Shown piece by piece: positions 5,454 through 56,483 of a stretch of 64,000 nt of DNA (its first letter is position 1; every line of letters starts with the position of its first letter). The position numbers were made by a program, and so were the translations under genes. The notes beneath the pieces were generated by a model, which did not search any database, had not been told where the DNA came from, and saw only the letters and a program-made list of their open reading frames with translations. Source of the stretch: Lysinibacillus sp. 2017 (lineage in GTDB: Bacteria > Bacillota > Bacilli > Bacillales_A > Planococcaceae); assembly GCF_003073375.1 (NCBI RefSeq), contig NZ_CP029002.1, positions 2,962,001-3,026,000 on the forward strand, given 5' to 3'.

Positions 5454-6212
5454 ATGAAATTACAAGGTAAAGTAGCAATCGTAACTGGTGCAGCTTCTGG
5501 CATGGGTAAAGCAATCGCTGAACTTTATGCAAAAGAAGGCGCAAAAGTTGTTGTTTCAGATTACAACTTTGAAGGTGCTCAAGTAGTAGCAGATGCAATT
5601 AAAGCAGCTGGTGGCGAAGCAATCGCTAACCGCGCTAACGTAGCAGAATTAACAGATATCGAAAACATGTTTGTAGAAACAAAAACAGCTTTCGGTAAAT
5701 TAGATATTTTAGTAAACAACGCTGGTATCATGGATGGCATGGAGCCAGTTGGTGAAATCTCAGACGAAAAATGGGATCGCGTATTCTCAGTAAACACACG
5801 TGGTGTTATGCAAGCGATGCGTATCGCGACAAACATCTTCCTTGAACAAGGTCACGGTGTAATTGTGAATAACATTTCTGCTGGAGGTTTACGTGGTGCT
5901 CGTGCTGGTGCTGCTTACACAGCTTCTAAACATGCAGTAGCTGGGTTAACTAAAAACACTGGTTATATGTATACAAACTCTGGTATTCGTTGCAACGGTA
6001 TCGCACCAGGTGGAGTAATGACAAACATCCAATCTTCAATGACTGATGTTTCTGAATTTGGCGCTGGTCGCCAAGGAACTGGCTTAGGAACAATGCCTCG
6101 CGCTGGTGAACCTATGGAAATTGCACAACTTGCATTATTCTTAGGTTCAGACGATTCAAGCTTCATCAACGGACAAGTTATCGCCGCTGATGCTGGTTGG
6201 ACTGCATACTAA
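5454..6212 (+). CDS. Short-chain dehydrogenase/reductase
   Basis: 252-residue classical SDR. The nucleotide-binding TGAASGMG motif is at residues 11-18, the structural NNAG at 88-91 and the catalytic set Ser142, Tyr155, Lys159 (YTASK). Asp36 at the end of the second beta strand suggests NAD rather than NADP. The C-terminal half has the usual GGVMTN loop and the terminal NGQVIAADAGW. It resembles glucose-1-dehydrogenase/3-oxoacyl reductase-like members, but the substrate is unknown. A strong AGGAGG site precedes the ATG. It is probably controlled by the divergent TetR repressor. Confidence 0.88.
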   Translation: MKLQGKVAIVTGAASGMGKAIAELYAKEGAKVVVSDYNFEGAQVVADAIKAAGGEAIANRANVAELTDIENMFVETKTAFGKLDILVNNAGIMDGMEPVGEISDEKWDRVFSVNTRGVMQAMRIATNIFLEQGHGVIVNNISAGGLRGARAGAAYTASKHAVAGLTKNTGYMYTNSGIRCNGIAPGGVMTNIQSSMTDVSEFGAGRQGTGLGTMPRAGEPMEIAQLALFLGSDDSSFINGQVIAADAGWTAY

Positions 6213-6235
6213 GCGTCACTTACTTAGACATGACT

Positions 6236-6270
6236 ACGGACAAGATCTTCATTGATCTTGTCCGTTTTTT
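6236..6270 (+). terminator. Terminator after the dehydrogenase gene
   Basis: ACGGACAAGATC and GATCTTGTCCGT form a 12-base-pair stem followed by six T. Confidence 0.9.
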
Positions 6271-6298
6271 AAACAGTAAACCCCATTGAAAGGTCCCT

Positions 6299-7336
6299 TT
6301 AATACAGTATCCCCGATTTCACAATTTCAACTTCTACTTTGACTGGAATTTTTAATGTAGAAAAATGTTCGCTCCAATCTTCTTTATACAGACTAGGATG
6401 AAATGCACGGACTCTTCTACCAAGTCCAATGGCGTCACTTTTTGCCTTTTGTAACTTTTCTATTACTTCATTCATATCTTTTTCCATTTTTTTAGTGAGA
6501 AATTGTTCAAGATCCGTTCGAATTTGCTTTTCTTTCAAATGGTCTTGCGGAAATTCAGTGACGACAACTTCAATTTTCAGTGCGATTTCAATTTCACTTT
6601 CTGAAATAGTAAAATTTCTCTTTACTTTATTAATACGGACTGAAAACGGACTTCCTTCATACAAAGTAGTAATACGTGCGACATGACCAAGCGACTTATT
6701 TAAAATATTAAGTAGAACTCCTTGATCTGCACTTAAGGTCTCACCTGTAAAAGAGCGACCTGAAAACAATGCTACACCATTACCAATTGGTCGATCTTCC
6801 TCATCCATTTTGATATAAGGTAATGATAAATCCTGTGCTTGTTCAAAAAGAAGCGATCCCGCAGTTTGCAACGTGTAGGGAATGACCATCGAATTTTCTT
6901 CCAAACTTGTAATAAAGCGATTATAAAACTCACCTGTAGAACTTTGCATTTCCTCTGTAAAATCAAAGAACGGCTTCAAATCTCCTTGTATAATGGCTAG
7001 TTTTGGTGTAATGGGGTTGAACGAATCACGAAAATATACATCCAAATACTCATAAATATCATCTTTTGCGGTTTTTTCGGAAATAAGTACTGTAGACAGT
7101 TCCGATAAATCCAATATTTGCTCTACTTTTAGATCTGCATTCTGTCGTACATCACGTGGCGACATACCTTGTCCAACAATTACAATCATCTTCATTTCCT
7201 CTGTTGTTGCTTGTGGATAGGCATAGTACGCAGTGACATCGCCGATTTCCCCTTCAAAGCCAGTTAATGATACTACAGATGAATTTTTATAAAGCCGCTC
7301 ATCCCAACAACCTACTAGTAATAGTGGCACTAACAT
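6299..7336 (-). CDS. GerC-family spore germination lipoprotein
   Basis: 345-residue Ger(x)C-family protein, the lipoprotein subunit of a nutrient germinant receptor in the spore inner membrane. Cys10 in LLLVGCWDE is the predicted lipidation site, and the domain ends in the helical, Lys-rich region typical of GerAC/GerBC. The ATG overlaps the gerB stop (TAATG), giving translational coupling. The start is doubtful: the resulting signal peptide is only nine residues with no basic residue, whereas in-frame codons upstream (IRIRYV...) would supply the usual positive charge but contain no ATG, GTG or TTG. It is the last gene of the operon. Confidence 0.9.
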   Translation of the reverse strand: MLVPLLLVGCWDERLYKNSSVVSLTGFEGEIGDVTAYYAYPQATTEEMKMIVIVGQGMSPRDVRQNADLKVEQILDLSELSTVLISEKTAKDDIYEYLDVYFRDSFNPITPKLAIIQGDLKPFFDFTEEMQSSTGEFYNRFITSLEENSMVIPYTLQTAGSLLFEQAQDLSLPYIKMDEEDRPIGNGVALFSGRSFTGETLSADQGVLLNILNKSLGHVARITTLYEGSPFSVRINKVKRNFTISESEIEIALKIEVVVTEFPQDHLKEKQIRTDLEQFLTKKMEKDMNEVIEKLQKAKSDAIGLGRRVRAFHPSLYKEDWSEHFSTLKIPVKVEVEIVKSGILY

Positions 7337-8382
7337 TAAGATGACATATCGGATTCGGATACAGTTCGCCCCCTTATTTTATTTACTAGTATAATAATAA
7401 TTGGTAGTAAAACGGTAAATATGAGATTGGCATATACAACATAATGCTTTAAAAAATCAAGTACTTCAAAACGAGTAAGAATGGTTGCAGCCACGCCAAT
7501 GACAATGAAAAAAATGAGTTGCTGTAGTCTAGGTGCTTTTCGCTTTTTTTCAAAATAGATGAGACGCATTACGAGTGCATAATTGACAATAGCTACCAAC
7601 GACCAAGATAACCAAATATAACTAAAAAACAAATCAAGGCGCTTTACAAAGGTAACTTCTTGCGAATGTAATATATACAAAATTGGTTCAGGAATCAATT
7701 TGATTTCTTCGAGTGAAAAAAACATGAGTGTAAATAGAAGTGCCAATAAATAAAAACTTGTCAGGCTGACCCAATACGCTGTCAATACCTTCTTATTTAT
7801 CTTTTCATCCTTTAATACATATTTGCGCAGCATGACATATGTTTCCGCACCGCCAAATGCATATGTTGAATAAACGAACCCCAGCATCCACGTATTGCTT
7901 CGATCATGAAATAACGGTAGTAAATTTGTAACATGTAAGTTAGGGATCGCCAAAAGCATAAAAATGATAAACAGGACAAGCATCGGAAGTAAAACGACCC
8001 CAATATTAACAGCCGTTTCAGGTCTACTAACACTCGCGTAAAAGCACACGAATAGAAAAATGGCGATTAGCACGATATCTGGTGTATTTGGAAACACCCA
8101 AGTCGTTAACACATACGTAATATAGATAACGAAAACAATAATATAAGCAAACCAATATATTAGATAGAGTGCTTTCGTAAAGCGGTTTAATAGGAAGTAT
8201 TTGTGCATTCGTTCGAAAAACAATAATAGTAAAAAAAACAAGATGGCAATAATGATAAATTGAATCGAAGCGTCGCGTCTGCCATGCTCAATAATTAAAT
8301 TTTGAAAAGACGTATACACAAATCCAGTTTGCATAACGAACATTAACATGAATAATTGTACTTTCGTTAATTGGATTTTCAC
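7336..8382 (-). CDS. GerB-family spore germination permease
   Basis: 348-residue polytopic membrane protein of the GerAB/GerBB family, related to amino-acid permeases, with about ten hydrophobic segments across the whole length. In characterised receptors this subunit binds the germinant. It lies between the A and C subunit genes, overlapping gerA by four bases and gerC by one, which marks a tightly coupled operon. The germinant cannot be predicted from sequence alone. Confidence 0.9.
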   Translation of the reverse strand: MKIQLTKVQLFMLMFVMQTGFVYTSFQNLIIEHGRRDASIQFIIIAILFFLLLLFFERMHKYFLLNRFTKALYLIYWFAYIIVFVIYITYVLTTWVFPNTPDIVLIAIFLFVCFYASVSRPETAVNIGVVLLPMLVLFIIFMLLAIPNLHVTNLLPLFHDRSNTWMLGFVYSTYAFGGAETYVMLRKYVLKDEKINKKVLTAYWVSLTSFYLLALLFTLMFFSLEEIKLIPEPILYILHSQEVTFVKRLDLFFSYIWLSWSLVAIVNYALVMRLIYFEKKRKAPRLQQLIFFIVIGVAATILTRFEVLDFLKHYVVYANLIFTVLLPIIIILVNKIRGRTVSESDMSS

Positions 8383-10241
8383 GCTTCGTCATCCTTTGGC
8401 GGCGAAAAACTCGTAACTTGTTTATTCGCTTTGTAATAAGGTTCACGGAAAAATATTTTTTTCAGCTCTTTTGGCTGAAATGGAACAATTGGTGAAAAAT
8501 AAGGCCGTTTTAATGAACTTAAATTCAATAAATGAGTAACAAAAAGGAACGTCCCAATAACAATTCCAAAAAACCCGAACAGTGCAGCCAGTGCCATAAA
8601 CGGAAAGCGTAACATGCGAATCGATGTATTGAGTTCAACAGATGGGACAACGAAACTTGAAATCGCTGTAAATGCTACGACAATGACCATTAAATTTGAT
8701 ACAAGTCCCGCACTTACAATTGCATCCCCAATAACAAGTCCTCCGACAATACCGATCGTCTGTCCTATCGATTTAGGTAGACGCACACTGGCCTCACGAA
8801 TCAGTTCAATCGTAATTTCCATAATCAATGCTTCTATAAGTGGTCGATACGGAATTTGATTGATATCCATCTTTACCTTATTGGCCAATTCGAGCGGTAA
8901 CACTTCAAAATGAAAACTGACAATGGCAATATAAAACGCAGGTAAAAAGATCGCAGCTAAAAAACTTAATATCCGCACAATGCGATAAAATGAGCCGACT
9001 AACACACGTGCATTAAAATCATCCGGCGATTGATAAAATGTAAAAAACGTCACTGGTCCTATGAGCGCTGTCGGCGATACATCCGTCATGATGGCAATTT
9101 TACCTTCTAGAATATTAGCTACAACGCGGTCTGGTCGCTCCGTATTCAAAAGTTGTGGGAACGGGGACCACACTTGATCTTCTAAACAATCACTAAGCTG
9201 ACCTACACTATAAAACTTATCTATATTGATTGCTTGTAGACGCTCCTCTACCGTTTTCAGTGCTTCTCTATCTACAAGGTTTTCCATATACAAATAGTAG
9301 GCATGTGTTTTTGTCACCTTGCCAAGGGTAGTCTCTTTAACAACCAGTTTATTATTTTTAATGCGTTTTCGGATAAGCGACACGTTCGCATCAAAGTTCT
9401 CAACAAGCCCTTCGTGCGAGCCACGTAATACTTGTTCATTTCCAGGTTCTTCTGGTGTACGGTGCACAAAATCTGGACTATTCAACCTTATGAGTTCTTT
9501 CGTTTTGGACAATATAATAAGTGTTTCGCCATTACAGATATATTGTATTAACTTTTTATAGTCATAGGATTCAGTAGTAATCGTGACAGAATCATCCATC
9601 ATCAGTGTTGATAGATTTGCTGACTCGGTTTGGGTGGAATCCTTGTCTTGTACATTGGATTCGGGTTCCTTGGAATCTTTGTCCTGTTGATTGGACTCGG
9701 GTTCCTTGGAATCTTTGTTTTGTTGATTGGAATCGGGTTCCTTGGAATCTTTGTCTTGTTGTTTGGATTCGGGTTCCTTGGAATCCTTGTCTTGTTGATT
9801 TGATTCGGGTTCCTTGGAATCCTTGTCTTGTTGATTTGATTCGGGTTCCTTGGAATCCTTGTCTTGTTGATTTGATTCGGGTTCCTTGGAATCTTTGTCT
9901 TGTTGATTTGATTCGGGTTCCTTGGAATCTTTGTCCTGTTGATTGGACTCGGGTTGCTTGGAATCCTTGTCCTGTTGATTGGATTCGGGTTGCTCACCTT
10001 TTTGCTCATTGGTATCTTCTTGTTCTGAATTTGAGTTTGGGGGTGTTGGCATATTTCGTGCGAGTCTTAGTATATGAAGATTGCGCTCCACATCACTTTT
10101 TTTCACAAGCGACGAATAAAAACACAAAATTGCCTGCTCATCTGGGCCCCAAGCAATTTCTTTCGCTATGAAATCTGAAGAATGAAGAAATTTTTTATTC
10201 AGTTGTTGAATCTCTTTCTGTATTTCTGTAGGTTGTTTCAT
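8379..10241 (-). CDS. GerA-family spore germination receptor A subunit with repeat insertion
   Basis: 620 residues, against about 480-530 for most family members. Residues 1-70 and about 210-400 form the cytoplasmic N-terminal domains, including FPQLLNTERPDRVV and GKIAIMTDVSPTALIGP. The C-terminal part has about five membrane segments, with the conserved IPYRPLIEALIMEITIELIREASVRLP region between them. The extra length is an acidic, Gln/Asn/Lys-rich block of ten 12-residue repeats (consensus EPESNQQDKDSK, residues 84-203). The insertion lies in the N-terminal domain and keeps the reading frame, so the gene looks intact. It starts an operon with gerB and gerC. Confidence 0.92.
   Translation of the reverse strand: MKQPTEIQKEIQQLNKKFLHSSDFIAKEIAWGPDEQAILCFYSSLVKKSDVERNLHILRLARNMPTPPNSNSEQEDTNEQKGEQPESNQQDKDSKQPESNQQDKDSKEPESNQQDKDSKEPESNQQDKDSKEPESNQQDKDSKEPESNQQDKDSKEPESKQQDKDSKEPDSNQQNKDSKEPESNQQDKDSKEPESNVQDKDSTQTESANLSTLMMDDSVTITTESYDYKKLIQYICNGETLIILSKTKELIRLNSPDFVHRTPEEPGNEQVLRGSHEGLVENFDANVSLIRKRIKNNKLVVKETTLGKVTKTHAYYLYMENLVDREALKTVEERLQAINIDKFYSVGQLSDCLEDQVWSPFPQLLNTERPDRVVANILEGKIAIMTDVSPTALIGPVTFFTFYQSPDDFNARVLVGSFYRIVRILSFLAAIFLPAFYIAIVSFHFEVLPLELANKVKMDINQIPYRPLIEALIMEITIELIREASVRLPKSIGQTIGIVGGLVIGDAIVSAGLVSNLMVIVVAFTAISSFVVPSVELNTSIRMLRFPFMALAALFGFFGIVIGTFLFVTHLLNLSSLKRPYFSPIVPFQPKELKKIFFREPYYKANKQVTSFSPPKDDEA
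9633..9992 (-). repeat. Ten 36-base tandem repeats inside gerA
   Basis: Ten in-frame copies of a 36-base unit encode EPESNQQDKDSK-like peptides. Copies 3-6 are identical in protein, while the edge copies differ by one or two residues (QPES, EPESK, EPDSNQQN, EPESNV). This gradient is typical of slippage or unequal recombination. Confidence 0.95.
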
Positions 10242-50728: not shown

Positions 50729-50853
50729 ATAAGCTAATGATTGACCTTATTAAATTAAATTCCAACGTCAATAAATTATCATACTTACTTCATATTTATT
50801 TCACATTCAAGAAGTAATATACTCATAAACTCATCAAATATGGAGGATTACTT

Positions 50854-51504
50854 ATGAAAAAAGTATTATTTGCAGTACCTCTCGCTTTAGCTTTATATGC
50901 CTGTGGTAATGAAAAAGTTACCGAAACAGATAAGCAAGAAGCTGAACAACATGTAGCCGACCAACAAGAGAAAGCTTCAAAAACTGCAGAAAAAGTCTGG
51001 GTAGTAGATGCGCGGCTGCAAGAACCAACTGAGGAAACCGAATGCTCTATGTGTAATATGAAAGTGTATACAAAAGATCATGAACTTGGAGTATTTGCTG
51101 CACAAGCTGTTAAAGCAGATGGATCCGTTGTATTTTACGACGACATCGGTTGTTTATTGAATGATGAGTATGTCCATAATATTCAAAACGAGAAATTTGT
51201 TCGCGATTATAACACATTAAATTGGTTCAATGTAGAAGATGCCATTGTTGTAAAAACGGATTTAAAATCGCCTATGAACTGGGGTTATATTTTCTTTAAA
51301 TATCAGGATGGTGCGGATGCATACATTGCTGAACATAAAGTGGCTACCATTACCCCATTAGACCAAGTTCGAAAAGAAGGCATCGAACGCCATAAGAAAA
51401 AGCATGAAAAAAGTCATAACCACTCAAGCGAAGAAAATCATTCTGAATCCGATATGGACATGAATATGGGAGAAGACAACTCATCAGAGGATAGTCATGA
51501 ATAA
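50854..51504 (+). CDS. nosL: NosL-family copper lipoprotein 1
   Basis: 216 residues. The lipobox is LYACGNE (Cys17). The NosL core has ECSMCNMKVY (Cys64, Cys67, Met69), FYDDIGCLL and PMNWGYIFFK. NosL binds Cu(I) and hands it to the nitrous oxide reductase maturation machinery. A feature of this copy is a C-terminal tail of about 50 residues very rich in His, Met, Asp and Glu (HKKKHEKSHNH, MDMNMGED), likely extra metal-binding capacity. It begins a tightly packed six-gene cluster. GGAGG precedes the ATG. No nosZ lies next to it. Confidence 0.9.
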   Translation: MKKVLFAVPLALALYACGNEKVTETDKQEAEQHVADQQEKASKTAEKVWVVDARLQEPTEETECSMCNMKVYTKDHELGVFAAQAVKADGSVVFYDDIGCLLNDEYVHNIQNEKFVRDYNTLNWFNVEDAIVVKTDLKSPMNWGYIFFKYQDGADAYIAEHKVATITPLDQVRKEGIERHKKKHEKSHNHSSEENHSESDMDMNMGEDNSSEDSHE

Positions 51505-51507
51505 GAT

Positions 51508-52845
51508 ATGAAAATCAAACACATATGGTATGTATGGCCCTTATTTTTGTGCATAGCCTTATTCGCGTTGCCTTTTCAAGCATTTGCACATAATCATCAT
51601 GAGGAGGCACCAATCCCTTCACAAAAACCCCACATCAAAACTGGTGAGAAAAGTGCTTTACAGAAACTAATCGATGCGACAGAACCTGGGGGCACGCTTG
51701 TTTTAGAGAAACGTTCCTACCGAGGTTCTATTTCCATTTCAAAGCCCATCACCATTAAAGGGGTTGAAGGAACGCGTATTGCTTCTTTAAAAACAGCATT
51801 AACAATCACGAATACTGAAAATGTGGTCATTGAAAACGTAGTGTTACAGGCAGAAGATGTAGGCATTGTTGCAACGGATATTAATAAACTCACATTAAAA
51901 AACATTAAGATTGAACAAGGGACTGCTGGTATTCAAATCTCTAACGGTACGGATATAACGTTTGACAATATAGCGATTTCCGGGCAGGATGGCCATTTTT
52001 CAACAAAAGGACACGCTATTGCCATTTTTAATTCTGCTAATTTTCAAGCAACAGGGTGTGATATTTCTAGTGTAATGGACGGTTTTTATATAGAGCACGT
52101 GGATAATATTTCGCTTACGGAGAATCGAATTACAGATGGCCGCTATGCTGTTCATATGATGTACAGCGACAATGTGACATTAGAGCATAATGATGTAAAA
52201 GCCAATATGACAGGATTTATGATTATGGTTGCGAATCATGTTTCGATTATGAATAATATGGTTGAAAAAAATAACTCACTTAATAGTTTAGGTGTATACA
52301 CGTATGACGTAGAAAAAGTAGATTTCAGTAACAATGCGTTAAATGAAAATACAGTTGCGATGTCTATTGAAAACACACGTAAAATGGTGATTAAAAATAA
52401 TTCTTTTTCAGCAAATGGCACAGTGATACAAGCAAAACGTTCCGGTACATTAAGTATTCAAGATAATGAGTTTTACGGCAACATCTTATCGGTAAGAACG
52501 GATAATGAAGGTGTTACGCTACACCATAATTACTATGATGACTATACAGGCAAGGATTATGATGGCGACGGTATAGGTGATACCCACTATATTGCAACGA
52601 ATTCCTTTGGCCAATGGATGGTGCGAAAGCCTGTTTATCAATACTTTATTGAATCTCCAAGCGTTGTAACGTTAAATATGATGGATACAGAAGTTATAGA
52701 TAGTAATTCGCTTGTTATCATTGATGATCAGCCTATTGTGATGAAAAAAACTATGAACACTAACTTTTCAATGAATGGATGGCAGTTCATCGGTAGTATC
52801 GTTGTACTGCTTGTCATGATTATAGTAAGGAGAAAATTAATATGA
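51508..52845 (+). CDS. nosD: NosD-family right-handed beta-helix protein
   Basis: 445 residues. A signal peptide precedes a long parallel beta-helix of Asn-rich rungs (NVTLEHNDVKANMTG, SIMNNMVEKNNSLNSLGVYT) of the NosD/CASH type, ending in a C-terminal membrane helix (WQFIGSIVVLLVMIIVRRK). NosD works with the NosFY ABC transporter in assembling the copper centre of nitrous oxide reductase. A His-rich patch (HNHHEEAP) follows the signal peptide. It sits three bases after the first nosL and overlaps the second by four. Confidence 0.92.
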   Translation: MKIKHIWYVWPLFLCIALFALPFQAFAHNHHEEAPIPSQKPHIKTGEKSALQKLIDATEPGGTLVLEKRSYRGSISISKPITIKGVEGTRIASLKTALTITNTENVVIENVVLQAEDVGIVATDINKLTLKNIKIEQGTAGIQISNGTDITFDNIAISGQDGHFSTKGHAIAIFNSANFQATGCDISSVMDGFYIEHVDNISLTENRITDGRYAVHMMYSDNVTLEHNDVKANMTGFMIMVANHVSIMNNMVEKNNSLNSLGVYTYDVEKVDFSNNALNENTVAMSIENTRKMVIKNNSFSANGTVIQAKRSGTLSIQDNEFYGNILSVRTDNEGVTLHHNYYDDYTGKDYDGDGIGDTHYIATNSFGQWMVRKPVYQYFIESPSVVTLNMMDTEVIDSNSLVIIDDQPIVMKKTMNTNFSMNGWQFIGSIVVLLVMIIVRRKLI

Positions 52846-53300
52846 AATCATTAAAATGGAGCGGCCTCCTCTTCATTATTTGTCTATTAGGGGCGTGCGG
52901 CGACAAAACCTATGAACCCCGAGCAATTAATCCAGAAACGGATGTATGCTACATCTGTAATATGAGTGTAACAAGCGTTGATTTTGCAGCACAAGCTGTA
53001 TTAAAAAATAGTGATATTGTCGTTTTTGACGACTTAGGCTGTTTAATGGACTATATCAAACAAAATGGAGAAGAAGAAATTGGGGCTGCGTATATTCGAG
53101 ATACGTCTTCTACAAAATGGCTGAATATTAAAGATGCAAGCTATGTTTATTCTAAAGATTATTGGACACCGATGAATTACGGCGTACTTGCTTTCGCATC
53201 GACAGAGGAAGCAGAGCAATATACGAAAGAACAACCAGGTGAAATTATACCGTATGATAAATTATTAACTTTTAATTGGGGAGTTCATGAACACGAATGA
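52842..53300 (+). CDS. nosL: NosL-family copper lipoprotein 2
   Basis: 152 residues. A lipobox LLGACGDK (Cys about 19) and the NosL core CYICNMSV, VFDDLGCLMDY and PMNYGVLAF are clear. Unlike the first copy it has no His/Met-rich tail and ends in GVHEHE. Two NosL proteins on either side of NosD suggest division of labour, for instance capture and delivery. It overlaps both neighbours by four bases. Confidence 0.92.
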   Translation: MKSLKWSGLLFIICLLGACGDKTYEPRAINPETDVCYICNMSVTSVDFAAQAVLKNSDIVVFDDLGCLMDYIKQNGEEEIGAAYIRDTSSTKWLNIKDASYVYSKDYWTPMNYGVLAFASTEEAEQYTKEQPGEIIPYDKLLTFNWGVHEHE

Positions 53301-54109
53301 GTACCCAAATGATCTTACTCGAATGTAAGCAGCTATTACGTAGTCGCTGGATACAAATTGTAACGGTTCTTTTTGCAATTATATTTACAGCGATTTTAAT
53401 GATTCAACATTTAGCACTTCCAGATACAAACGGCTTTACACGTCAAACAGCATCATTATTAAATATATTATTATTTTTACTACCGTTATTTATGCTAACC
53501 ATTGGTAGTATGAATATTGCTAGTGATAAAGAATCCGGCTGGCTCGGCTTGTTAAGAACTTATCCACTTAAAATGGGAAGCTATGTCGTTACGAAATATA
53601 TGGCATTATGTCTTGTCTTTGCAGGAATTATCCTATTTGTTTTTGCTGTTGCCTTTTTAGTCGGTAGCTTCTTTGGTGGTATAAAATTGCCGTTATTTGC
53701 AATAGGCATTACCCTGCTAATATTATTTATATTTAATGCCGTAAGTGTACTTGTTGGGAGCATAGCAAAAAGCCGATTACATGCACTTGCAATAGGTTTA
53801 GGAGTTTGGTCTGTTGTAAGCTTGCTGTGGTCTTATATGGTCATGGCTATCGGTACAATGACGTCAGAAAATTTTTTACAAAAGATTGTCATTTTATCGA
53901 TTCATATCAATCCACTTGAATGGATTCGCTATGGTTATTTTTTTTTTTCTGAACAAACGGCTGTTTTAGGTCCAGCCTTTTATGGTGTGTCGAAATTCTA
54001 CGCATCGCCACTAGGCTTTTTGTTCTTTATCATTATTTCAGGTTTATGGATAGCCTTTTCATTAGTGAGTGCAACAGTGATGTTAAAGATAAGAGGTAAA
54101 CGCGTATGA
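53297..54109 (+). CDS. nosY: NosY-family ABC permease
   Basis: 270 residues with six hydrophobic segments, an ABC-2-type permease. The start MSTQMILLECKQLLRSRWIQ and the segment SGWLGLLRTYPLKMGSYVVTKY are characteristic of NosY. It forms the membrane part of the NosFY transporter, which interacts with NosD. It overlaps nosF by four bases. Confidence 0.9.
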   Translation: MSTQMILLECKQLLRSRWIQIVTVLFAIIFTAILMIQHLALPDTNGFTRQTASLLNILLFLLPLFMLTIGSMNIASDKESGWLGLLRTYPLKMGSYVVTKYMALCLVFAGIILFVFAVAFLVGSFFGGIKLPLFAIGITLLILFIFNAVSVLVGSIAKSRLHALAIGLGVWSVVSLLWSYMVMAIGTMTSENFLQKIVILSIHINPLEWIRYGYFFFSEQTAVLGPAFYGVSKFYASPLGFLFFIIISGLWIAFSLVSATVMLKIRGKRV

Positions 54110-54792
54110 CAGTACAACTTCAAAATGTAACAAAATCATTTAAAGCGGGTCGTGGCATCTTTGATGTAAGCTTTGACTTAAAACCAGGACATATTACAGC
54201 ATTAGTCGGTTCAAATGGTGCAGGGAAAAGTACGATTATTAATATTTTAACGAACTTATTAAAACCAGATAGTGGTCAAATCATACGAGAAACTCAGGAT
54301 GTACGCTATATGCCAGATGATATTGATTTTCCTGATACGTTAACAGCGGAGGAAATTATTCGATTTCTTGGGGGTTTGAAAAAAGAATCTCCTATAAGAC
54401 AAAGTGATTTATTAGAAAAAGTGGGTTTACTGGAAGCGAAAAAATTAAAGGTAGGTCAATTTTCTAAAGGCATGCGCCAGCGTTTAAATTTAGCGCAAAG
54501 CTTGATGGGAGATAGTACGCTTTATATTTTAGATGAACCAACAAATGGCCTCGACCCTTATTGGATTGCTAATTTAAAGAGGATGTTAGAAGAAGAACGT
54601 GCGAATAATCAAATTGTACTATTCTCTACTCACCTTTTGAGCTTTGCTGAAGAAATCGCCGATCAAGTGATTTTGATTCATCACGGACGCATTTTAGCTA
54701 CGGGTGGAATCAAACAATTGTTACAAGAAGGAAATTGTACAACACTTGAACAGTTATGGCTTCAAATGACGAAACAAGAGCTTAGCTTATGA
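54106..54792 (+). CDS. nosF: NosF-family ABC ATPase
   Basis: 228 residues. Walker A is GSNGAGKST, the signature FSKGMRQRLNLAQSL and Walker B YILDEPTNGLDP. It energises NosY. Overlaps of four bases on both sides show a single translational unit. Confidence 0.93.
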   Translation: MTVQLQNVTKSFKAGRGIFDVSFDLKPGHITALVGSNGAGKSTIINILTNLLKPDSGQIIRETQDVRYMPDDIDFPDTLTAEEIIRFLGGLKKESPIRQSDLLEKVGLLEAKKLKVGQFSKGMRQRLNLAQSLMGDSTLYILDEPTNGLDPYWIANLKRMLEEERANNQIVLFSTHLLSFAEEIADQVILIHHGRILATGGIKQLLQEGNCTTLEQLWLQMTKQELSL

Positions 54793-55304
54793 AGAAGTGG
54801 TTAACTGGAATATTGGTCGTGGTTGTTGTGATTTTTGTAGGTTTCGAATTAATGGATACGTTTCAGGAATCAAAGGATCGCGAGCCTATTCGTACAATGC
54901 AAGCGACAGATTTCTCTTTACCAACCCTTACAGGCAAAGAAATGTCACTTTCATCTGTACAAGGAAAAGTTGTTATTTTAAACTTTTGGGCATCTTGGTG
55001 TGAACCATGTAACATTGAAATGCCTCATTTACAGTCTTTCTATGAAAAATATCAAACGGATGTGGAGATTTTAGCGATCAATGTCACAAGTAAGGATAGC
55101 GAAGTAGCTGTAAAAAAATTCGTCGATCAATATGATTTAACCTTCCCTATTTTGCTAGACGCATCAGGTGATATTAGTACGATGTATGGAGCTTTTTCCA
55201 TTCCGATGACCATTATCTTGAATCGAAACGGCGAAATAGAGCAAGAAATAGTAGGACCAGTGGAAGAAGAGCTATTGGAGAAATATATACAACCATCTTT
55301 ATAA
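54789..55304 (+). CDS. TlpA/ResA-like membrane-anchored thiol-disulfide protein
   Basis: 171 residues. One N-terminal membrane segment (about 4-21) is followed by an extracytoplasmic thioredoxin-like AhpC/TSA-type domain with the redox pair Cys71 and Cys74 (WCEPC) and the cis-Pro in SIPMT. Such proteins reduce cysteines of copper or haem proteins outside the cell; here it probably keeps the NosL or target cysteines reduced. It is the last gene of the nos-like cluster, overlapping nosF by four bases. Confidence 0.9.
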   Translation: MKKWLTGILVVVVVIFVGFELMDTFQESKDREPIRTMQATDFSLPTLTGKEMSLSSVQGKVVILNFWASWCEPCNIEMPHLQSFYEKYQTDVEILAINVTSKDSEVAVKKFVDQYDLTFPILLDASGDISTMYGAFSIPMTIILNRNGEIEQEIVGPVEEELLEKYIQPSL

Positions 55305-55421: not shown

Positions 55422-56483
55422 CTATAAGAATAGCATTCCAACAAGTCCACTAACGATTCCGAGTAACACAACCGAAGAAATTACGAAAAATAGCACTTTC
55501 TTAGGGAATGATTTTGCCACTAACAATAATGATGGAAGACTGATTGCAGGTAATGTAATTAACAGTGCTGCTGCAGGGCCGCCACCAAGACCTAATGACA
55601 TAAATGTTTGGATAATTGGAATCTCAGCAGCAGTAGGAATAACGAAAAGCATACCAACTATCGCAAAAATAATAATTCCCACTAGACCGGTTGCAGTTGT
55701 TTCACCTAATTGAGGGAATAGCCAAACACGGGCTGCACCTAAAAGTAAAACAGATAAAATGTAAGTAGGAACTATATAAAGAAGCATACTTCCTATAGTT
55801 TTTAACCATCTAGATAAAAAATTACCAGTAGATTCTTCGTCTTTTATTATTTGATCAATGTCAAAAGAAGTATCATTTTTAACAAAACGATTGGCTAAGT
55901 AACTTACACCAAAAGTTAAAATAAGGCCAAATACTAAACGAATCAATGTGAATTTCCATGATAAAACAAATGTCATAAAGACAAGCGTCGCAGGATTAAT
56001 GATAGGATTCCCAATCCAAAAGGCTAAAGCTGCTCCAACTGAGACATTTTTTTTACGAAGACCTACGACTAAAGGTGCAGCACAACAAGTACACATCATG
56101 CCAGGTATAGCAGCAAGTCCGGCAATGGCAGTACTACCAAATGTTGTTTTCCCTAGCATTTTAAGAAGCCATTGAGTTGGTAATAATACTTGTATTAAAG
56201 AACCAAGCAGTATACCAAGTACAGCTGCCTTCCAAACAGATAAGAAATAAACTTTTGCATAATCCCAAGCTGATTCCCAGGAAAAAGTTATATTTGAAAG
56301 GTCTCCTAATATAGAAGAGCCAATAGAGTGTGTATCAGCAGCTACGATTCCCTTTTGATAATAAGGTAACCATTTAACATAAAGTAATCCAGCAGCAGCG
56401 ATTAATAAAAATAAAGCAATAAACCAGAACGTCTTTCTCTTTGTAGAGCGCTCCGGATGAAGTGTAGTTTTAAAGTCCGACAT
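55422..56483 (-). CDS. ArsP/YraQ-family permease
   Basis: 353 residues with eight or more hydrophobic segments. The motif MMCTCCAAPLVVGLRKKNVSV and the second-half counterpart FVIPTAAEIPIIQTFMSLG are diagnostic of the DUF318/ArsP_1 permease family, whose Cys pair is essential in ArsP. Known members export trivalent organoarsenicals; others move unknown thiol-reactive substrates. It is divergent from selD with a 164-base shared gap, so a selenium compound is a candidate substrate, an inference from position alone. Confidence 0.88.
   Translation of the reverse strand: MSDFKTTLHPERSTKRKTFWFIALFLLIAAAGLLYVKWLPYYQKGIVAADTHSIGSSILGDLSNITFSWESAWDYAKVYFLSVWKAAVLGILLGSLIQVLLPTQWLLKMLGKTTFGSTAIAGLAAIPGMMCTCCAAPLVVGLRKKNVSVGAALAFWIGNPIINPATLVFMTFVLSWKFTLIRLVFGLILTFGVSYLANRFVKNDTSFDIDQIIKDEESTGNFLSRWLKTIGSMLLYIVPTYILSVLLLGAARVWLFPQLGETTATGLVGIIIFAIVGMLFVIPTAAEIPIIQTFMSLGLGGGPAAALLITLPAISLPSLLLVAKSFPKKVLFFVISSVVLLGIVSGLVGMLFL

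Follow-up and report, generated by a model that had tools for sequence, protein, structure and literature searches.

We analysed a window of 64,000 nucleotides (nt) of the Lysinibacillus sp. 2017 genome (C1:2962001-3026000; positions below count from the first base of this window unless a contig coordinate is given), and in it a cluster of six genes at 50854-55304 for the maturation of nitrous oxide reductase (NosZ) that stands without a nosZ gene. The first-pass annotation had placed six nos-maturation genes here, and all six open reading frames (ORFs) proved to be intact on the plus strand. The first gene, nosL1 (nosL_A in the comparisons below; 50854-51504), codes for a Cu(I)-chaperone-like lipoprotein of 216 amino acids (aa) with a CxxCxM site and a His/Met/acid-rich C-terminal tail (PF05573, 25.6 bits at a cut-off of 24). 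It is followed by nosD (51508-52845), encoding a 445-aa right-handed beta-helix protein of the copper relay type with a C-terminal hydrophobic helix (PF05048, 93.3 bits at a cut-off of 23.6), and by nosL2 (nosL_B; 52842-53300), encoding a second Cu(I)-chaperone-like lipoprotein of 152 aa, also with CxxCxM (PF05573, 51.3 bits at the same cut-off of 24). The remaining genes are nosY (53297-54109; a 270-aa permease of the ATP-binding cassette (ABC) type, PF12679, ABC-2 permease), nosF (54106-54792; a 228-aa ABC ATPase, PF00005, 99 bits) and a tlpA/resA-like gene (54789-55304) for a 171-aa thiol-disulfide oxidoreductase with a WCEPC site (AhpC-TSA, 104.7 bits), which scored 149.5 bits with the ResA model, under its cut-off of 170. 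The description of the genes as overlapping stood for nosD to tlpA, where neighbouring genes share 4 bp, and failed for nosL1 and nosD, which are 3 bp apart.

Comparison with solved structures supported the assignment of the relay components. NosD and NosY aligned over most of their length with the corresponding chains of PDB 7o0y, which we take to represent the NosDFYL machinery of Pseudomonas stutzeri or Paracoccus denitrificans: NosD matched 7o0y_A with E=2.6e-16 across residues 70-409, and NosY matched 7o0y_D with E=4.3e-10. No PDB chain matched either NosL of the window at E<=0.01. With the NCBIfam NosD model TIGR04247 the window protein reached 220.5 bits, under the cut-off of 300, which was passed in 8 of 250 genomes of its own family, Planococcaceae. 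The first reading of two NosL lipoproteins, one with a His/Met-rich tail, was confirmed, the tail belonging to the 216-aa protein and the CxxCxM sites reading CSMCNM and CYICNM. Across relatives, C17 (the lipobox Cys), C64, C67, M69 and M141 of NosL_A were invariant (56/56), as were C19, C36, C39, M41 and M111 of NosL_B (74/74), and the CxxCxM site itself was counted in 49 of 50 NosL_A and 64 of 64 NosL_B. This motif is the proposed Cu(I) site of clade II NosL (PMC6530538). In NosD, H216, M218 and M240 were invariant (88/88) and were also present in the NosD proteins of nosZ-linked loci (15/15) and in the 7o0y chain; these three residues may bind copper. A further Met, M238, marked the nosZ-less group, being present in 83 of 87 of its NosD proteins compared to 0 of 15 nosZ-linked ones.

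The reported lack of a nitrous oxide reductase held for the whole genome, which is assembled in one contig of 3,737,915 bases with a completeness of 99.99%. The NosZ model TIGR04246 gave no match above its cut-off of 625 bits anywhere; the best match (40.7 bits) was the CuA domain of a 166-aa ba3-type oxidase subunit II. Because the same model detected nosZ in 6 of the 250 family genomes (five above the cut-off, and one, G183, with NosZ split over two frames; G, L and f mark our genome, locus and family handles), the absence is real rather than a failure of the search. The nos_propeller model PF18764 found no match even in control genomes and was dropped as uninformative. No nosB or nosC was seen among the ORFs listed for 47-60 kb, for which no profile search aimed at either gene was made.

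Clusters of this kind turned out to be widespread. NosD was found at >=180 bits in 77 of the 250 family genomes and in its nosZ-less form in 72, counting as nosZ-less every full NosD outside the five genomes whose NosD copies are all nosZ-linked. A class-wide sample contained NosD at E<=1e-40 in 97 of 319 genomes; a search of named contigs returned one relative, Kurthia senegalensis, and an order-level search returned, among the matches listed, the own family alone. We retrieved 118 loci, each at most 20 kb long, some of whose neighbouring genes are known from labels alone, and counted 98 as nosZ-less and 20 as nosZ-linked (L126 being classed as nosZ-linked by its nosB and nosC). The two-NosL layout was common: among 88 nosZ-less loci whose NosD proteins grouped in one sequence cluster, nosL_A was present in at least 50, nosL_B in at least 64 and both in at least 37, these being lower bounds since the gene picking misses some. 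In contrast, nosL was found in only 1 of the 20 nosZ-linked loci. A small lipoprotein, YtkA-like by eye, occurred in 14 of these 20, in agreement with PMC13068155. In a tree of 102 NosD proteins (15 of the 20 nosZ-linked and 87 of the 98 nosZ-less loci, the others, including L043 and L044, falling outside the NosD cluster or the length filter), a single branch with a support of 97 parted the 87 nosZ-less from the 15 nosZ-linked sequences; the tree was built by a quick method and is unrooted. The nosZ-less clusters are therefore not recent nosZ losses. In six loci of family f16 (L158-L160 and L162-L164), NosD and NosL accompany a different ABC permease and an ATPase in a fixed neighbourhood with transport-like genes, representing another kind of NosD setting. 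In L087 (G177:C1:1105000-1124900), a transposase-like gene stands between nosL and nosD and nosD contains a stop; the same genome carries a second cluster (L088).

Directly upstream of nosL_A in the window we found a conserved promoter element (50789-50820, +; matrix score 21.2 bits) composed of TTCA (50789-50792), a 6-bp spacer, TTTCACA (50799-50805), a 9-bp spacer and TANNNT (50815-50820). Two 8-mers recurred upstream of nosL_A when the loci were sorted into 14 groups, each a genus or a single locus: ATTTCACA in 9 groups and CTTATTTC in 8, compared to 0.75 and 0.85 in the shuffled background, and ATTTCACA lay upstream of nos clusters in nine genera. The resulting consensus, TTCA-N5/6-TTTCACA-N9-TANNNT, consists of two half-sites 10 or 11 bp apart (about one helical turn) directly upstream of a -10-like hexamer. 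A half-site pair just before the -10 hexamer is the layout expected for an OmpR-type activator. The second recurrent target of the element was an operon about 130 kb from the nos cluster (C1:3143919-3147477, -) that codes for a 317-aa propeller-like lipoprotein, an OmpR-type response regulator, a histidine kinase and a 173-aa YtkA-domain lipoprotein with a His/Met-rich tail of its own, next to genes resembling hemY and hemH by eye.

Genome-wide searches showed how closely the element follows these two targets. The exact pattern matched 39 times in the first 20 genomes (18 of them matched) compared to 8 times for the reversed pattern, and 83 compared to 28 times in 80 further genomes, 30 of which had been picked for lacking the propeller (55 of the 80 matched). 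Among the 122 matches in these 100 genomes, 76 precede a propeller operon or a nos locus; the exact element was present within 150 bp upstream of 54 of 69 propellers and within 1100 bp upstream of 22 of 52 nosZ-less NosD genes. The 31 propeller-negative genomes contained eight matches (0.26 per genome), one of them directly before nosL_A of G241, compared to 38 other matches (0.55 per genome) in the 69 propeller-positive genomes. A scoring matrix trained on 22 propeller-operon promoters alone reached the threshold of 10 bits upstream of 36 of 49 nosL_A genes, but upstream of only 10 of the 707 other genes in these loci. Among the seven NosD-positive, propeller-negative genomes, of which all but G209 were read, four scored below the threshold before nosL_A (G126 and G101, 2.7 bits each; G030, 4.1; G082, 7.2).

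The element also preceded other copper genes: copC-copD in G015, G043 and G020 (Pfam identified both proteins in G015 and CopD in G043, the others being named by eye; no NosD match was found in G020), the gene for a YtkA lipoprotein in G058 (by Pfam) and G158 (by likeness), an additional nosL in G015 (by Pfam), and a PepSY_TM-like membrane protein gene in G124 (by likeness to a Pfam-tested PepSY_TM protein), with an identical element in G118. Matches close to a cspA-like gene, or in an unclear context, were treated as chance. Upstream of the nosZ-less clusters, patterns for CsoR, CopY, NsrR, PerR/Fur and CcpA showed no enrichment compared to shuffled sequences.

The propeller lipoprotein reached no Pfam cut-off; its profile matched a surface-layer propeller protein and YncE in the PDB, and H202, M231 and H247 were its only invariant His and Met residues (13 sequences), beside the lipobox Cys. 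It was present in 112 of the 250 family genomes and co-occurred with nosZ-less NosD (65 genomes with both, 7 with NosD only, 47 with the propeller only and 131 with neither; Fisher p=2e-21, uncorrected for ancestry), where G183, having both kinds of NosD, was counted as positive and the five genomes with only nosZ-linked NosD as negative. None of these five carried the propeller. Independently of the element, the two systems were also physically linked in several genomes: in G332 (f11) the propeller, response regulator and kinase genes stand directly before nosD, in G364 (f11) the propeller and kinase genes directly follow the cluster, in G267 (f12) all three follow it, and in G034 (own family) the propeller and response regulator genes lie about 2 kb before nosD. 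Taken together, the common promoter element, co-occurrence and linkage provide good support for shared regulation of the nos cluster and the propeller operon. Elsewhere, in L141, L145, L147, L149 and L165 (families f3, f11, f32 and f5), a kinase/regulator pair of a second type, with a kinase of about 300 aa, adjoins the nosZ-less cluster; other lineages may use another switch.

To which enzyme the copper would go was approached through the distribution of four copper proteins, NosZ, NirK, COX1 and COX2. A COX2 match, the oxidase subunit with the CuA center, was found in 76 of 80 chosen genomes, twice in the own genome, and was missing in G028, G045, G070 and G080 of the Kurthia genus, all of which have NosD; the whole nos cluster was read in three of them (G028, G045 and G070). 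Heme-copper oxidase subunit I was present at least once in 19 of 19 chosen genomes including these four, where its length of 661-662 aa and the missing CuA subunit suggest a quinol oxidase. Subunit I being present in all genomes tested and the CuA subunit not, CuB is therefore the one copper site common to all of them, which is consistent with, though not proof of, CuB of heme-copper oxidases as the client of the cluster. Genes for the copper-independent oxidase, cydA or cydB, occurred inside the retrieved stretch of 20 kb for 9 of 98 nosZ-less loci from five families compared to 0 of 20 nosZ-linked ones, where we estimate that fewer than one would be expected by chance; six of the nine were Pfam-checked, L043 and L044 look near-identical, and in L124 cydB alone is seen, at the border of the locus. 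Genes for copC, SCO, YtkA and copC-copD flank the nos cluster of G266, a genome of family f11. When Bacillus subtilis is starved of copper, its oxidases Qox and Cta are supported by CopC-CopD (YcnJ) and YtkA (CtaK), with Cyd as the oxidase that is independent of copper (PMC13344008); this physiology makes sense of the copC/copD, YtkA and cyd neighbours of the nos clusters.

In L088-L090 (genus g14; L088 being the second copy of G177), a tlpA-bearing NosD cluster adjoins a pair of genes, one with weak similarity to cytochrome bd subunit I and one with a cytochrome c domain at its end, possibly an unusual oxidase. In the own genome, outside the window (L099, C1:1368000-1387900), a full-length gene for ba3-type oxidase subunit I (7624-9285, -, in locus coordinates) is followed about 5 kb further by a second, C-terminal copy (1313-2383, -), the two being separated by a gene that by eye resembles a serine recombinase (5909-7489, +); it looks as if an element had entered the oxidase gene and brought along its own replacement end.

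Several other explanations of the cluster were weighed against these data. The gene names, and the homology of NosD and NosY to the NosDFY structure, would suit a split locus that matures the product of a nosZ at another place of this genome, an option raised in the first pass. It is refuted for this genome, since no nosZ exists in this single-contig genome although the model detects the gene in relatives, the nosZ-less and nosZ-linked NosD proteins are parted by one well-supported branch, and nosL is nearly absent from nosZ-linked loci. A decaying, functionless remnant of a former nos operon, for which the missing nosZ and the interrupted copy in G177 (with its second cluster elsewhere) might speak, has as little to recommend it in view of six intact ORFs, a conserved promoter and the invariance of certain Cys, His and Met residues in 56 NosL_A, 74 NosL_B and 88 NosD. 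The companion proposal, that the set matures another extracytoplasmic copper enzyme, appears likely, and the range of candidates could be narrowed. The copper nitrite reductase NirK was proposed as the client in Parageobacillus thermoglucosidasius (PMC13068155) and suggested in Bacillus azotoformans (PMC3475470), and a NirK homologue adjoins NosL/NosD in G. stearothermophilus according to PMC13068155. In the own family, however, NirK-like proteins were found in 10 of 250 genomes, with scores of 178.9-193.9 bits that stay short of the curated cut-off of 296.3 and with an internal stop in three cases. Every one of these genomes lacks full NosD, so that the overlap with the 77 NosD genomes was zero; the own genome gave no match at E<=0.001 with a model that could miss a highly divergent NirK. 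NirK is thus very improbable as the client here and may still hold in Geobacillus.

Specificity for the CuA centers of the caa3 and ba3 cytochrome oxidases, together with Sco and YtkA/CtaK, would account for the TlpA and YtkA partners, for the SCO gene adjoining the cluster in f11 loci and for the near-universal COX2, but we consider it unlikely in view of the four Kurthia-genus genomes that keep NosD and a 661-662-aa subunit I without a COX2 match, which removes a CuA enzyme as client there. Also unlikely is a role in copper export or tolerance, with the ABC module and chaperones removing excess copper and the kinase sensing it. CopC and CopD were first named for resistance, and many two-component systems for copper in the envelope respond to an excess of the metal. 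Against this, the CopC-CopD and YtkA proteins of B. subtilis act in import and delivery (PMC13344008), and inspection by eye of the first genes downstream of those element matches that were read revealed none for copper efflux. Finally, the propeller lipoprotein might itself be a metal client, a stand-alone fold relative of the NosZ propeller, as its three invariant His/Met residues and its co-occurrence with nosZ-less NosD could suggest. This is improbable: CuZ is held by seven His (PMC6530538) and the propeller has two invariant ones, its best structural relatives are a surface-layer protein and YncE with NosZ not among 15 matches, 47 genomes have the propeller without NosD, and an operon shared with a kinase suggests a sensor.

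We therefore favour, with a probability of roughly 55%, an extracytoplasmic copper-delivery machine for copper acquisition and cuproenzyme assembly, rather than for nitrous oxide reductase, that belongs to a three-component regulon and feeds heme-copper oxidases. This reading is grounded in the gene content, the absence of nosZ, the lack of a NirK match, the shared cis-element, the co-occurrence with the propeller and the conserved residues. Copper shortage would be perceived on the outer side of the membrane, where the propeller may act as the sensor through H202, M231 and H247, and the kinase would signal to the OmpR-type response regulator, which is predicted to bind TTCA-N5/6-TTTCACA and to raise CopC-CopD, YtkA, NosL and NosDFY. 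The regulator would also drive its own operon with the YtkA-like copper lipoprotein, and copC-copD in some relatives. NosL_A and NosL_B would then catch Cu(I) at their CxxCxM sites outside the membrane and hand it to NosD, ATP use by NosFY would switch NosD between accepting and releasing states so that copper is released to the client, and TlpA would hold the thiols reduced. Heme-copper oxidases are the likely recipients, possibly at CuB, the sole copper site found in every genome tested. As judged from sequence, the cluster would represent a NosDFYL relay, repurposed or originally general, within a copper regulon. A bolder version, which we regard as possible but doubtful, is that NosDFYL of Bacilli is foremost a general copper-supply machine loading CuB of oxygen-respiring oxidases and switched by a propeller copper sensor, itself maybe charged by the relay, with NosZ building as a specialised use.

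A number of observations weigh against the copper-delivery regulon. Shared ancestry inflates the Fisher p for the co-occurrence of propeller and NosD, 47 genomes have the propeller without NosD, and within the own genus the association is weak (propeller in 7 of 9 NosD-positive and 3 of 7 NosD-negative genomes). The element is not confined to the two main targets, 46 of its 122 matches preceding neither, of which nine are accounted for by copper genes and nosL_A of G241; nor is it constant at them, the exact pattern being present at only 22 of 52 nosZ-less NosD loci and 13 of 49 nosL_A genes scoring below 10 bits. In addition, G008 and G241, propeller-less by profile, score 16.0 and 21.0 bits before nosL_A, and a regulator other than the response regulator of the propeller operon could read the element at both sites. 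Fnr-like sites (24 loci compared to 12.4 in shuffles, with two mismatches) and Rex-like sites (11 compared to 1.4) were enriched upstream of the nosZ-less clusters; we put this down to their overlap with TTTCACA, and additional redox control may nevertheless operate. With respect to the client, copC, SCO and YtkA were observed to adjoin the cluster directly in one family only (f11), and many genomes with heme-copper oxidases lack NosD, so that NosD is not essential for these enzymes. Since the search covered NosZ, NirK, COX1 and COX2, a client other than a heme-copper oxidase is conceivable among the remaining copper proteins.

NosDFYL clusters without nosZ are already in print (PMC3475470, PMC13068155). 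The nos4 and nos5 clusters of B. azotoformans (PMC3475470) and AOT13_14620-14640 of P. thermoglucosidasius (PMC13068155) are of the same nosD-nosL-nosY-nosF kind, but in their cited parts these papers point to NirK as the possible client and tie no regulator to the cluster; the Parageobacillus propeller lipoprotein, whose operon also encodes a two-component system (AOT13_14265/14255), is treated there separately from the nosZ-less cluster (PMC13068155). The solved NosDFYL machinery shares with the present one the CxxCxM site of NosL and the conserved H216, M218 and M240 of NosD, and the present cluster differs from it by the absence of NosZ, the two NosL proteins, the thiol-disulfide protein in the operon, the extra M238 of NosD and the promoter element common to copper genes. 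In the YcnKJI/CtaK system of B. subtilis, CopC, CopD and YtkA likewise supply oxidases when copper is short, Cyd being copper-independent, but the repressor YcnK is used there, and NosL does not occur in the main text of PMC13344008. The combination of a lipoprotein propeller, a kinase and a regulator resembles the MtrAB-LpqB three-component systems, a parallel drawn in PMC13068155; the likeness is one of architecture, without a homology test, and the target set here is copper-related. As judged by titles and abstract openings in the open-licence literature, no link of NosD/NosL clusters with CopC/YtkA copper genes, with the propeller system or with oxidase copper limitation was found. The regulon link joining the cluster, the propeller operon and the copper genes is thus the new part with regard to the literature searched.

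The surroundings of the cluster provided a few further observations. Downstream, where a terminator and then selenium genes had been described, a gene for an ArsP_1-family permease (Pfam; 55422-56483, -), convergent with tlpA and located between tlpA and selD, had been overlooked; it weakly matched the SO_0444 Cu/Zn efflux model (62.1 bits, cut-off 300). Genes for rhodanese-like and metallo-beta-lactamase-rhodanese (persulfide handling) proteins, one of them Pfam-tested, lie near nosZ-less clusters in three families (L043-L046 of the own genus, L136 of G488 and L147 of G323); they hint at a sulfur role, though in few lineages only. The frequent pncB-nadE and moxR-guaA flanks (named by eye) look like plain conserved chromosome order.

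NosL has been described as a dedicated chaperone of the CuZ center (PMC6530538), and nosD is the only Nos accessory gene annotated beside nosZ in KEGG (PMC11388526). If the relay supplies other copper enzymes, nosD and nosL would be poor signs of nitrous oxide reduction in Bacillota, as the 72 genomes with nosZ-less NosD compared to 6 with nosZ among 250 illustrate. The copper-delivery regulon proposes a copper-shortage regulator other than YcnK, and it suggests, in a form open to testing, how Gram-positive bacteria may deliver copper to their oxidases on the outer side of the membrane, for which the Kurthia-genus strains without a CuA subunit would provide a clean test system.

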